Shown piece after piece: positions 23,022 to 57,666 of a stretch of 64,000 nucleotides of DNA. A program made the position numbers and the translations under genes. How positions within the stretch are numbered: position 1 is the first letter of the stretch; every line of letters begins with the position of its first letter. The notes under the pieces are model-generated. The model had not been told where the DNA came from and ran no database searches. It saw nothing but the letters and a program-made list of their open reading frames with translations. Source of the DNA: Yoonia rosea (GTDB lineage Bacteria; Pseudomonadota; Alphaproteobacteria; Rhodobacterales; Rhodobacteraceae); contig NZ_FTPR01000001.1 in assembly GCF_900156505.1 (NCBI RefSeq), positions 2,108,001 through 2,172,000 on the forward strand, read 5' to 3'.

Positions 23022-23278
23022 GCGCCCCAAACCGCCGCGCCCAACGACCGGTCGAACGCGAAACACTGTCCATTCAAAGACCCTGAATTGACGTTGGTGA
23101 GTGCAGCCTTGTGCCCTTTGCGAGGGAATCCGGCGTGTGCAAAGCGATTTGGAACCTGCCTTAACCAATTCTTAACATCTGCAACAAAAACGTGTGCCAG
23201 ATCACAGAGCAGCGCGGATCGTTAGGCTACTGTCCTCCATATTCTACACCGTATTTTTATATGAATTGGAGTAAACAA

Positions 23279-52936: not shown

Positions 52937-53359
52937 CTAAGTCGGAGTCAATGGCCATTTCAGATTAAGTTTCACACCAAAATGCCCTTCGGATTCTTCA
53001 TCAATCCATCCACCTACAATCTTTGCGCGTGCAGCGGCTATAGGCAGGCTAGGATCAAGAGCCTTCAGCTCATCTCGGTATTTCGTTGCATCGGTTTTTG
53101 GCAGATAACCCACCAATAGACCATTTATCCTTACTTCAACTGCGTTAGCGTCATACGGGTTAACATCATCAGGCACTAAGACCGCAATGCACTCATACTT
53201 GGCAGAGCGTTCTGACTTGCCTCCTACAATGTTGCTGATAGCATTCTGATAGCTTGCCTCACCAACAACTTTCTGTTGGAAGCCCCTAGTATGAGCGAGT
53301 GTGAAAGAAGCAGTGAATTCCTTCTTCTTCCGACCAAGAAGTCTTCCAAGTAAACTCAC
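52937..53359 (-). CDS. HIRAN-like domain protein
   Basis: This 140-residue protein has a basic N terminus ([15 protein letters not shown]) and a segment resembling the HIRAN domain: [12 protein letters not shown], then [32 protein letters not shown] domains recognise DNA ends or modified DNA, usually in larger repair proteins; stand-alone forms exist in bacteria. The gene overlaps the pheS stop by four bases. Its codons are noticeably more AT-rich than pheS and pheT, suggesting later arrival. Confidence 0.68.
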
Positions 53360-54429
53360 CTACTCAACCCACCATGCAGCGTCGGCACATCCAGCGCGCT
53401 GAAGCCGTAGTGCCGCAACCACCGCAGATCGCTGTCAAAGAACGCCCGCAGATCGGGGATGCCGTATTTTAGCATCGCGATCCGGTCGATGCCCATGCCA
53501 AAAGCAAAGCCTTGCCATTCCGCAGGGTCGATCCCGCCTGCTTGCAGCACCTTGGGGTGCACCATGCCGGAACCGAGGATTTCCAGCCAGTCGTCGCCCT
53601 CGCCCACTTTGAGCGTGCCGCCTTCCCATGAACAGCGGATGTCGACCTCGGCCGATGGTTCTGTGAAAGGAAAGTGCGACGCGCGGAAGCGGATGTCGAC
53701 GTGGTCAACCTCGAAGTAGCTTTTCACGAACTCTTCCAGTACCCATTTCAGGTTCGCCATGCTGATATCTTTGTCAATCGCGAGCCCCTCGACCTGATGG
53801 AACATCGGCGTGTGGGTCTGGTCATAATCGGCGCGGTACACACGACCGGGGCAGATGATGCGGGTCGGTGCGCCTGTCGCCTCCATCGAGCGGATTTGCA
53901 CCGGTGATGTATGCGTGCGCAACACATGCGGCGGGCGGTCATCGCCTTCGGCACGGTGGGTATAGAACGTGTCCATCTCAGCCCGCGCAGGGTGGTGGTC
54001 GGGGATGTTCAGGGCGTCAAAGTTGTACCAGTCGCTTTCGATCTGCGGGCCTTCGGCCACACGGAACCCCATGTCGGCAAAGATCGCGGTCACCTCTTCG
54101 GTCACCTGGCTGATGGGGTGAATTGACCCTTGCCGCGCATCACGTGCAGGCAGCGTCACATCCAGCCATTCGTCGCGCAAACGCGCATCAAGGGCGGCAT
54201 CAGCCAGCGCCATTTTCTTGGCCGCCAGTGCGGAATTGATCTCATCCTTCAGCGCATTCAGCGCAGGGCCTGCGGTCTGGCGTTCCTCGGGCGTCATCTT
54301 GCCCAATTCCCGCATCTGCAAACTGATCTCGCCCTTTTTGCCGACGGCCTGCACGCGCAGGTCTTCGATGGCGGCCTCATCGGCGGCACCGGCAATCAAG
54401 CCAAGGTATTTTTGTTTCAGATCGTCCAT
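53356..54429 (-). CDS. pheS: Phenylalanine--tRNA ligase alpha subunit
   Basis: This 357-residue catalytic subunit begins [15 protein letters not shown] with the N-terminal coiled coil, then class II motifs: [53 protein letters not shown] and [18 protein letters not shown]. It makes phenylalanyl-AMP and charges tRNA-Phe with PheT. pheS is followed by the HIRAN-like gene and not directly by pheT. Confidence 0.98.
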
Positions 54430-54625
54430 GCCGCACCTCTTGCAATCGTCCCAGCGGAGTTAGCGAAATGGTGCCATGGTTGCAAGAAGCGTTCAGCCTT
54501 GGCGCGGCAAGCGTGGCGGCCGCGCCGGAGTCTAGACCAACTGGTCAGACACAGGGCAATCTGGGACAAAACTGTAAATGGTGCGCAAGGTGGGGCCTTT
54601 TGCTGGAGAGAGCAGCCTGTAAACG

Positions 54626-55243
54626 TCAGCGATTGCCTCTGCCGTTGTTACCGTTACCGCCTTTGCCGTTGCCGTTATTGCCGTTGCCGTTATTACCGTT
54701 GCCGTTGCCGTTGCCGTTATTGCCGTTGCCATTGCCGTTGCCGTTGCCGTTATTGCCGTTGCCATTGCCGTTGCCGTTGCCGTTATTGCCGTTGCCATTG
54801 CCGCTATTGCCATTGCCACTGCCGTTATTGCCACTGCCGTTGCCGTTATTGCCGTTGCCACTGCCGTTGCCGCCGTCGCCATTGCCGCCGTTGCCACTGC
54901 CGTTGCCGCCGTCGCCATTGCCGCCGTCGCCATTGCCGTTGCCGCCATTGCCGTTACCGTTGCCGCCATTGCCGTTGCCGTTCCCAGCATCATCCATAGG
55001 AGGCGGTTGTATATCCCCCATGGCCTCTGCCATGTCCATTGCAAAGGCTCTGGCCCCGTTCAACGTGGCTTGTGATGCGCCAACCCCCAGAATAACGGCA
55101 AGAGAAGTAACAACGGCAAAATCGACAGTGACAGCGCCATTGTCATCTTGTTGGAATTTCTTGAAAAACGCGCGGGGACCTGTCGGTTGTTGGGTTTTGC
55201 CGCAGCGCCGCAGCAGATTGGCGTTACCAAACATATCGAACAT
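54626..55243 (-). CDS. Pilin-like membrane protein with long Gly/Asn repeat tail
   Basis: This 205-residue protein starts at the ATG at 55243 with AAGGA nine bases upstream. Residues 1-35 are basic and polar, ending DDNG. Then AVTVDFAVVTSLAVILGVGASQ (about residues 37-58, partly quoted) is a hydrophobic helix like that of Flp/TadE type IVb pilins, where a glycine precedes the cleavage site; Asp stands at position 41 where Glu is usual. Residues 86-205 consist almost only of Gly and Asn, with a few Ser, Asp, Lys and Arg. It may be processed by a prepilin peptidase, exposing a disordered tail. No Tad genes are nearby. Confidence is good for coding and moderate for the pilin link. Confidence 0.68.
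   Translation of the reverse strand: MFDMFGNANLLRRCGKTQQPTGPRAFFKKFQQDDNGAVTVDFAVVTSLAVILGVGASQATLNGARAFAMDMAEAMGDIQPPPMDDAGNGNGNGGNGNGNGGNGNGDGGNGDGGNGSGNGGNGDGGNGSGNGNNGNGSGNNGSGNGNSGNGNGNNGNGNGNGNGNNGNGNGNGNGNNGNGNGNGNNGNGNNGNGKGGNGNNGRGNR
54629..54988. repeat. Low-complexity hexamer-based repeat encoding the Gly/Asn tail
   Basis: On the plus strand the tract is built of GCCGTT-like hexamers (GCCGTT, GCCATT, GCCACT, ATTACC) for about 360 bases, with higher-order units that encode about ten residues (GNGNGNGNNG type). Such tracts vary in length by replication slippage and may change protein length between strains. Confidence 0.85.
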
Positions 55244-55473
55244 ATCACTGGTCCTTCTCAACTCGCACTAGATACAAAAACGGGACGGCACCCGCCTTTT
55301 CATTGGTCTGCTGATCGCGTGAGGATATGTTCCAATTAAGACAGAATATTGAAAATTTACTTCAAATTGTGACCCGGCACACAAAGGGACTATCTGATCC
55401 GTACAGCGACTGAAAAAACTCCCGATGCGCGGTGCCTAAGCTCCTCTTAACTTTGCTGTCGTAAGACGCGTGC

Positions 55474-56892
55474 ATGTTTATGCAGACCGCAGCCCCCGTT
55501 ATTGCCGCGAAGAGCCTTTATACGGCGGCAGGTACTCACGCGCCGCCGCGTGCGCTACGGCTGGGTTCGCTTCTCGGGGCGATGAGCTATGCACTTGATA
55601 TGACGGAAGGCCAGCCGCCAGGGCATTGCATTCGCTGTTGCTGGATCGGGACACGCATTGGCAAAGCCTTGGAGATAACCGGGCAAGCCTATGAGGACCT
55701 CTATTTCACCCTTTTGCTGAAAGATCTTGGCTGCAGCAGCAATGCGGCACGAATTTGTGAACTCTACATTGCAGATGACATCACCTTCAAACGTGATTTC
55801 AAGATGATCGACGGGAGTCTCTCGGCCGCATTGCGGTTTGTCTTCACCAAAACCGGGCTGGGCGCCGGGCTCAGTGAAAGGTTGCGCGCGACCGTCAATA
55901 TCTTGCGCAACGGGGGCGACATTAGCCGCGAACTGATTGAAACCCGTTGCAACCGTGGCGCAGATATTGCGGCAAAGATGCGGTTTTCGAAGGCTGTCCA
56001 GGAGGGCATCAGATCGCTTGATGAGCACTGGGGCGGCGGCGGCAAACCACTCGGGCTGTCTGGCGATGATATACCGCGTATTTCAAACATCGCCCTGATG
56101 GCGCAGGTCGTCGACATTTTTCATTCAGCGCAGGGCCCAGAGGCCGCAATGGCAGAAATCGAAGGACGCGCCGGCGACTGGTTTGATCCGGCTCTGGTGG
56201 CAGCGCTTAAAACGGCCAGCGCAACGCCTGACTTTTGGACGCGCCTGAACGATCCAGATTTGGCAGAACTTGTTTTCTCACTCGACCCAAGCGAAACGGC
56301 CCTTGATGTCGACGAGGACTATCTTGACGATATCGCCTCGGCCTTTTCCGATGTCGTCGATGCAAAATCGCCCTTTACGGCCGACCACTCCAACCGTGTC
56401 ACCCTCTATACCGACATGATCGCCGAGGAACTCGGGCTTTCGGCGGATCACCGGCGCTGGCTGCGGCGCGCGGCGCTCTTGCATGATCTTGGCAAACTGG
56501 CGGTGAGCAATCAGATTCTCGACAAACCGGGACGACCGGATGCCACCGAATGGGCAACCATCCGGACGCATCCGAAATATAGTCAGACAATCCTCGAACG
56601 GGTCGAGGCCTTTTGCGATATTGCACCCGTTGCCGGGGCGCACCATGAACGTGTGGATGGGAAAGGATATCCTGCGGGACTGGGTGGCAAAGACCTTTGC
56701 CTAGAAGCCCGCATACTCGCCGTTGCGGATGTTTTTGATGCACTCACTGCGGACAGGCCCTACCGGGCGGCAATGCCGATCGCGAAAGCGCTGGAAATCA
56801 TGGCCGCAGATGTTGAAGCCGCCTTTGACCCCGTCTGCTTTGCTGCACTGCAAGGTGGGCTTGCTAAGCTGGCAAGCCCCGATGAGATTTGA
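55474..56892 (+). CDS. Tandem HD-GYP protein with degenerate first domain
   Basis: This 472-residue protein has two related halves. Residues 30-260 resemble an HD-GYP domain with lost metal sites: LLKDLGCS replaces HD, and GGGGKPLGL stands where HERxDGxGYP is expected. Residues 290-470 are an intact HD-GYP domain: LLHDLGKLAVSN and HHERVDGKGYP, then ILAVADVFDALTADRPYR. The intact half is a predicted cyclic-di-GMP phosphodiesterase. There is no receiver domain or membrane helix. It diverges from the pilin-like gene, with 230 bases between starts, so the two may share control. Confidence 0.87.
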   Translation: MFMQTAAPVIAAKSLYTAAGTHAPPRALRLGSLLGAMSYALDMTEGQPPGHCIRCCWIGTRIGKALEITGQAYEDLYFTLLLKDLGCSSNAARICELYIADDITFKRDFKMIDGSLSAALRFVFTKTGLGAGLSERLRATVNILRNGGDISRELIETRCNRGADIAAKMRFSKAVQEGIRSLDEHWGGGGKPLGLSGDDIPRISNIALMAQVVDIFHSAQGPEAAMAEIEGRAGDWFDPALVAALKTASATPDFWTRLNDPDLAELVFSLDPSETALDVDEDYLDDIASAFSDVVDAKSPFTADHSNRVTLYTDMIAEELGLSADHRRWLRRAALLHDLGKLAVSNQILDKPGRPDATEWATIRTHPKYSQTILERVEAFCDIAPVAGAHHERVDGKGYPAGLGGKDLCLEARILAVADVFDALTADRPYRAAMPIAKALEIMAADVEAAFDPVCFAALQGGLAKLASPDEI

Positions 56893-57033
56893 AGATCTCT
56901 GGCGTCCAGCCTGCGCATCGCAGACCGTCCGGTTCGCGCCGCAAACAGATAACTGGGCGGCCAGAAATTGAGCAGCCTTCGCGCCTGCGTTACTGCAAAC
57001 TCATTCACATGATCTGCCGAACTATCTGACGAA

Positions 57034-57063
57034 AAAGGCCGCCCAGTTTCCTGAGCGGCCTTT
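57034..57063 (-). terminator. Terminator of the rpmI-rplT transcript
   Basis: AAAGGCCGC and GCGGCCTTT form a nine-base stem with a 12-base loop, 22 bases past the rplT stop, followed by a T run on the minus strand. Confidence 0.88.
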
Positions 57064-57085
57064 GTTTTCCGGTCGGGTGCGGGGC

Positions 57086-57448
57086 TTAAGCAGCCAGCGC
57101 ATCCTTGGCTTTTCCAACAACAGCGGCAAATGCCTCAGGCTCGTTCACGGCGAGATCAGCAAGAACCTTACGGTCCACTTCGATGCCAGCCAGTGTCAGG
57201 CCGTTGATGAACTTGGAATAGTTCAGTGTCTCGTCAACCGAGCGCACACCTGCGTTGATCCGCTGGATCCACAAAGCGCGGAAGTTGCGCTTGCGGTTGT
57301 GACGGTCACGGGTTGCATACTGGTTGGCTTTGTCGACCGCTTGTGCCGCGACCTTGAAGGTCTTGGAGCGGCGATCATAATAACCTTTGGCAGCGTCGAG
57401 TACTTTTTTGTGACGACGGTGCGTGACGGTTCCACCTTTAACGCGCAT
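57086..57448 (-). CDS. rplT: 50S ribosomal protein L20
   Basis: This 120-residue ribosomal protein begins [17 protein letters not shown] and has the [23 protein letters not shown] segment (here [17 protein letters not shown]) of L20. It binds 23S rRNA early in assembly and may also repress its own operon. It lies 17 bases after rpmI. Confidence 0.98.
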
Positions 57449-57465
57449 ATCTCAATTCCCTCTAA

Positions 57466-57666
57466 TTAACGTGCGTAAGGCATCATCGGCTTGATGATAC
57501 CCTCGTCTTGCTTGCTCAGTGTGGTTGTCCCACGAGCGTTACGGAGGAATTTGTTCGTGCGCTTGATCATGCCGTGACGTTTGCCAGCCTGGCCCGCCAC
57601 AACACGGCCAGAAGCCGTCACTTTGAACCGCTTTTTGCAGCTCGATTTCGTTTTCATCTTCGGCAT
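57466..57666 (-). CDS. rpmI: 50S ribosomal protein L35
   Basis: This 66-residue protein starts at the ATG at 57666 ([20 protein letters not shown]), not the earlier in-frame ATG, since family members begin MPKMKTKS. It ends [10 protein letters not shown]. It is paired with rplT as in most bacteria. infC is not adjacent here. Confidence 0.98.

Follow-up and report, generated by a model that had tools for sequence, protein, structure and literature searches.

Tad pilins are almost pure helices, which raises the question of how bacteria alter the surface chemistry of a Tad pilus. In the Caulobacter Tad pilus, according to the portion of the structural account used here, the mature pilin is a single 45-residue helix with its C-terminal end turned outward (PMC11067988). 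For the Kil pilus of Myxococcus, the available part of the source presents a model in which the major pilin, KilP, covers the surface with its unfolded C-terminal part; the same source treats KilK and KilO as Flp-type, low-expressed minor or adapter pilins, and gives KilO 59 residues (PMC12075869). It has been proposed, in the section of the work used here, that Tad pili help marine bacteria of the kind discussed below to colonise algae (PMC8383342). A search for tailed or low-complexity Tad/Flp pilins by titles and abstracts, among open-access papers, found none.

How does the locus described here compare with these systems? The window, i.e., the whole 64,000-nucleotide stretch of Yoonia rosea DNA that was analysed, holds a gene whose building block is of the known Tad pilin kind; the tail is the new part. 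The preliminary description, made from the letters of the DNA, had seen here a pilin-like helix following a glycine and joined to a long Gly/Asn tail. This layout is confirmed by a 205-aa open reading frame with a 119-residue tail, of which 91% is Gly+Asn (58 Gly and 50 Asn, together with 3 K/R and 3 D). The features are as follows.

54626..55243, minus strand: tailed Tad-type pilin gene, 205 aa (translation, pilin-profile match, dN/dS)
55136..55243, minus strand: leader, residues 1-36, ending in Gly36, the presumed cleavage site (alignment A2)
55019..55135, minus strand: pilin helix region, residues 37-75 (model helix 38-75; homology to tad-locus pilins)
54629..54985, minus strand: Gly/Asn tail, residues 87-205, made of imperfect GGN-AAY repeats (composition, codons, repeats; no predicted structure)
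55252..55258, minus strand: Shine-Dalgarno-like AGAAGGA before the start codon (present upstream in the window, G018 and G006)
55328..55358, minus strand: conserved upstream block (..TTTTCAATATTCTGTCTTAATTGGAACA), a possible promoter or regulator site (near-identical in the window, G018 and G006)

The pilin-like N-terminal part

The start codon at 55243 is backed by the AGAAGGA just upstream, whose 3' edge lies 8 nt from the ATG, and in two other genomes of the genus, G018 and G006, the motif likewise closely precedes the start. No sigma-70-type promoter was found in a search upstream of the gene, and an Rfam scan of 53000-57600 gave no match. The leader ends in FFKKFQQDDNG, where the Gly is residue 36, and continues into AVTVDF; residue 36 is also the start of the most hydrophobic 19-mer of the protein. 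The hydrophobic helix opens with AVTVDFAVVTSLAVILG, and a short linker with PPP precedes the tail. D33, G36 and D41 are invariant across the 15 sequences of alignment A2, in which the leader of the window protein is ~22 residues longer than those of tad-locus pilins.

A structure model of low confidence (15 sequences, mean pLDDT 49.6) places a helix at 38-75, directly after Gly36, with pLDDT 58-73 in the helix block, and none beyond residue 75; the tail, with pLDDT about 40-50, receives no predicted structure. Sequences of solved structures gave chance-level matches only. The leader would be removed by a prepilin peptidase cutting after Gly36.

Is the helix that of a Flp pilin or of a TadE protein? 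The preliminary description had called it Flp/TadE-like, and only the first half of this name stood. A profile was made from 130 distinct short pilin-like ORFs, chosen by a motif pattern in loci L003 and L009-L090; several of these ORFs adjoin secretin genes. With it the window protein scored 48.9 bits (E 5.8e-14), and scores for the five remaining tailed proteins lay between 40.7 and 54.7 bits. Among 1200 shuffles of the N-termini no score exceeded 8.2 bits, and the TadE of the genome reached 5.8 bits, neither value being significant. Among the 722 background ORFs were seven genuine members of the family (the two tad pilins and five of the tailed proteins) with scores to match; the rest stayed at or below 5.4 bits. 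The glycine before the helix, the acidic residue at +5 and the aromatic residue at +6 are present as G36, D41 and F42. Membership in TadE (PF07811) was rejected: the protein has no TadE match, and the sole TadE match of the genome is another gene on C1, the contig that carries the window.

Pfam at E 10 gave no match in the window protein, and NCBIfam none either. It had been suggested earlier that the lack of a pilin-profile match in the helix would refute the pilin assignment, a test that would mislead: the two tad-locus pilins examined likewise have no pilin-family match in Pfam or NCBIfam, so that the silence of these collections on the window protein is uninformative. Flp_Fap (PF04964) at E 10 matched nowhere in the genome, tad-locus pilins included; in a control search it gave matches in 6 of 14 genomes, 1 above the cut-off. 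Because the standard profiles behave in this way, pilin genes are easy to miss in this marine group.

The Flp pilins of tad loci in the genus and family (G[AV]VTVD[FW]VVLTAA) share with the tailed proteins the leader end, the Gly, the D at +5, the aromatic at +6 and the helix, and the tailed proteins branch among them. They have ~41-71 residues after the Gly, with one at 97, whereas the window protein has 169 (the median is 49 in 141 ORFs, three tailed ones included), together with its 119-residue tail, a longer leader and a position outside the tad locus. Its gene lies on C1 between pheS and an HD-GYP gene, and the tad/cpa locus lies on contig C4. The earlier statement that known Flp pilins lack such tails holds for long tails; for short ones it does not, given the short Gly-containing ends in 6 of 138 untailed ORFs and the unfolded C-terminal part of KilP. 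Short Gly-containing C-terminal ends occur in pilin-like proteins of other genera at L064 1492-1710, L068 1423-1686, L069 1498-1710, L076 1501-1725, L081 1505-1867 and L082 2003-2452, and these are possible intermediate forms.

Related to these comparisons is how the protein would leave the cell, a question that the preliminary description had raised after seeing no tad genes nearby. This is correct for the neighbourhood, whereas the genome as a whole does have such genes. Contig C4 carries, in order, two tandem pilins, cpaB, cpaC, an OmpA-like gene, cpaE, cpaF, tadB, tadC, two TPR genes and a CpaA-type peptidase, named from gene order, with family matches behind three of the names (secretin, peptidase, ATPase); cpaBC-ompA-cpaEF-tadBC is the conserved order of the roseobacter locus in the portion of the source at hand (PMC6473078). 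Two A24 peptidase genes are present, one in the C4 locus and the second on C1, which also has a tadG/E/F-like set near 1,543,200-1,546,200 (TadE by profile, the other two by eye). An export route therefore exists, since a tad/cpa locus with a prepilin peptidase is found on another contig of the same genome. All 12 locus proteins are present in each of the four other carriers of the tailed pilin (tblastn; in G353 the match to the first TPR protein spans 58% of the query), which is a weak argument because pilin matches occur in 49 of the 56 genus genomes in any case.

Purifying selection acts on the N-terminal part. Over 81 N-terminal codons compared between the window, G018 and G006, dN/dS is 0.18-0.23; taken separately, the helix has values of 0.14-0.21 and the leader extension of 0.25-0.37.

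These data bear on an alternative in which the protein is a pilin-derived membrane anchor, with the helix remaining in the inner membrane and the Gly/Asn chain tethered by it in the periplasm, for instance as a spacer or a wall-binding chain. The location of the gene away from the tad locus and the long leader are in its favour and count against an orphan pilin; many other Gly/Asn carriers of the family resemble signal-peptide proteins by eye, and a long tail may not pass the secretin. However, Gly36, D41 and F42 have their counterparts in the tad pilins, where cleavage is presumed to occur at the Gly, and in other pilins the +5 residue is important for assembly, as stated in the part of the Caulobacter study used here (PMC11067988). 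The low dN/dS of the helix likewise speaks against a mere anchor, which we regard as unlikely.

The Gly/Asn tail

The DNA of the tail contains imperfect arrays of period 6, 15, 21 and 27 between 54632 and 54982 (Tandem Repeats Finder). When the window is translated in six frames, stop-free stretches of 100 codons in which two residues make up at least half occur at the tail locus only. The other frames are also biased there, e.g., toward Leu/Pro on the + strand, as is the necessary outcome of such a repeat. In the window gene 28 of the 39 deviations from GGC/AAC are synonymous, and in the other five genes 43-82%, vs 22-28% expected without constraint; this test counts repeat copies as independent though they are not, so it is supportive only.

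Repeat units had been proposed as something to follow across strains, and they turn out to vary in length and register while the tails stay in frame. The frame is open in all seven copies seen, and a basic end (RGNR or GKKN) is found in 6 of the 7. The tail has 119 residues in the window protein vs 59 in P0002, the N-termini being 99% identical. A broken tail frame in close strains, or a gene absent from all relatives and lacking a transcript, would have spoken against the whole assignment in the preliminary description; neither was encountered, and four other genomes of the genus have the gene.

Could this nevertheless be a decaying pilin copy, its tail a runaway repeat devoid of function? 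The patchy presence of the gene, in 5 of 56 genomes, and the quick change in tail length would agree with decay. Against it stand the dN/dS of 0.18-0.23, the frame open in seven copies, the excess of synonymous changes in the tail and the basic end in all copies but one. Decay is already disfavoured by these observations, and we hold it to be improbable.

Another possibility is that the tail forms a bundle of the collagen-like or polyglycine-II type and so makes a stiff adhesin. The one tail that suggests it is that of G003, the sole one with a clear period of three: its period is strict, its Gly autocorrelation at lag 3 is 2.05, and against Pfam Collagen it scores 23.9 bits, which is sub-threshold (cut-off 27.2), with models of collagen-like adhesins far below their cut-off. 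Glycine at every third residue, expected of a collagen-like adhesin, is not the pattern of the window tail, where lag 3 gives 0.83; the G018 tail gives 0.98, both tails peak at 2, 5 and 7, and the tail of a paralogue in the same genome shows no Gly periodicity. Nor is the register conserved, and the structure model offers no tail structure. A bundle is therefore very unlikely. Composition, frame and basic end (6 of 7) are kept while length and register vary, and for this reason a disordered chain fits better than a fold.

Carriers, origin and neighbours

The same helix-plus-tail build had been sought in relatives, and it is there: six tailed proteins occur in 5 of 56 genus genomes, namely two in the genome of the window and the others in G018, G006, G003 and G353. 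When alignment A1 was searched against these 56 genomes, the tailed proteins scored 112-154 bits, although for five of the six, which are themselves part of A1, a high score is built in (that of G353 is outside A1 and was first seen via a Gly/Asn DNA pattern); all other matches stayed at or below 64 bits, and those read are short pilins. In 295 family genomes, nearly all one per genus, no match above 60 bits lies outside the genome of the window, among the matches listed. Short pilins of the same kind are widespread, with at least 244 of the 295 matching A1 at E 1e-4 when up to 18 candidates were scored in each genome. One near-identical metagenomic protein (1 of 25 candidates) came from a protein search with the window protein; with the G006 protein and the paralogue, no near-identical protein was obtained, and plasmid records gave no match at E 0.01. 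Because it is present in only 5 of the 56 genus genomes, the tailed pilin is dispensable.

In a tree of 72 helices, built on 57 columns and with unsettled bootstrap, a branch supported at 95/93 sets the six tailed proteins apart, within the pilins of the genus. They appear to form one clade among the tad pilins, a conclusion with fair, not strong, support.

The paralogue is a second tailed Tad-type pilin of 162 aa with a GGN-rich tail, encoded at L042 5756-6244 (C1:950756-951244). A perfect TTAA-N7-TTAA, which we take to be the consensus of the CtrA box, stands 39 nt before its start. The window has a single perfect copy of this sequence, at 23161-23175.

Gly/Asn repeats are not confined to these genes. 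The (GGN-AAY)x4 pattern is found in 12 of 56 genus and 40 of 394 family genomes; among the loci listed, and judged by eye, many carriers are signal-peptide-like and a few are cytosolic, e.g., RNase E. Beyond the genus clade, the loci listed include at least two Gly/Asn-tailed proteins that are pilin-like, in G267 (L141 7855-8856) and G302 (L142 6916-8271), and at least one TadE, in G138 (L145 5743-6483). The two pilin-like proteins have a GAVTADY pilin helix, scoring 32.7 and 32.8 bits to the pilin profile, and a Gly/Asn-rich tail; they differ in belonging to other genera, in a longer middle part and in a common stretch, GNNGFGNGDQDAPGNS..NNNAENAGGN, and apparently arose separately from the genus clade. 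The G138 protein resembles the window protein as a Tad minor-pilin type with a Gly/Asn-rich end, but it is a true TadE (33.2 bits, cut-off 22.9) of another family, adjoining tadF- and tadG-like genes. It contains PGNSGAHNNAGDDAG, similar to the GNNGFGNGDQDAPGNS stretch.

As for the genomic surroundings, the pilin gene and its divergent neighbour sit between rplT and pheS (54430-57085), an interval of ~2.7 kb here and of 129 to 1439 bp in the 16 loci, out of 30, that showed matches to both ends, several rplT matches being cut by the locus end. The interval is a variable site in the genus. The neighbour, at 55474-56892, had been described as an HD-GYP protein, and this is upheld (HD_5 E 3e-47). 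A CtrA-box-like sequence with one mismatch lies before its start, at 55436-55451, and is kept in G006.

The link to c-di-GMP that had been attached to this neighbour came out weakened. If the tailed pilin were paired with the HD-GYP protein, c-di-GMP turnover could control its display, and the divergent arrangement of both genes, together with the imperfect CtrA-like box, in the window and in G006 speaks for such a pair. Yet the HD-GYP gene occurs in 7 of 56 genomes and the tailed pilin in 5, both being present in 2, i.e., in 2 of the 10 genomes with either gene. G018 keeps only HD-GYP fragments in different frames, a broken remnant; in G003 and G353 the pilin lies elsewhere and the HD-GYP gene was found in neither carrier; and 4 of the 7 HD-GYP genomes are without any pilin match (two of these four are <90% complete). 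A stable partnership was rejected as a rule on the co-occurrence, the remnant and the displaced pilins, and control of display by the neighbour is hardly to be expected.

A proposed disordered chain on the pilus surface

What, then, is this protein? On balance we consider it probable that it is an orphan, minor Tad (Flp) pilin with a disordered tail that would coat the pilus, where cleavage, assembly and the function of the tail are inferred. In favour are the homology of leader end and helix, the tad/cpa locus with its A24 peptidase, the single tailed clade and the purifying selection on the N-terminal part. The Kil pilins of Myxococcus offer the analogy by which a minor Tad subunit with a brush is the most likely role. 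As described in the portion of that work used here, they are alike in being Flp-type subunits with minor pilins and an unfolded surface part, and they differ in that this portion describes no Gly/Asn repeat (PMC12075869).

The scenario would begin with the duplication of a tad-locus pilin, one copy of which became an orphan and gained the Gly/Asn tail. Once cut by the prepilin peptidase after Gly36, the helix would join the Tad pilus as one of its minor subunits, whether along the shaft or at an end. A subunit laid as in the Caulobacter Tad pilus would carry its tail outside, and the outward C-terminal end would thus bear a chain of ~130 residues as a disordered, hydrophilic and almost uncharged brush that would alter the adhesion, bundling or recognition of the filament. 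A minor role seems likelier than a main one, since otherwise each subunit would have to bring a long tail through the secretin as the filament passes.

A broader idea concerns the family as a whole, and we offer it as doubtful. In Rhodobacteraceae, proteins of the Tad pilin type may repeatedly have become carriers of length-variable Gly/Asn chains, as in the Flp clade, in G267 and G302 with their GAVTADY pilins, and in G138 with its TadE, with in-frame slippage of GGN-AAY tuning the thickness of the pilus brush from strain to strain. Asn-Gly is the dipeptide most prone to deamidation, and the window tail contains 40 such pairs; the brush could also turn from neutral to negative as the filament ages.

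If the orphan-pilin reading is true, the tail may give the pilus a soft, water-loving coat, and an extra pilin with a long, disordered chain that changes quickly in length would be a simple and testable way for these bacteria to alter the surface of their pili.
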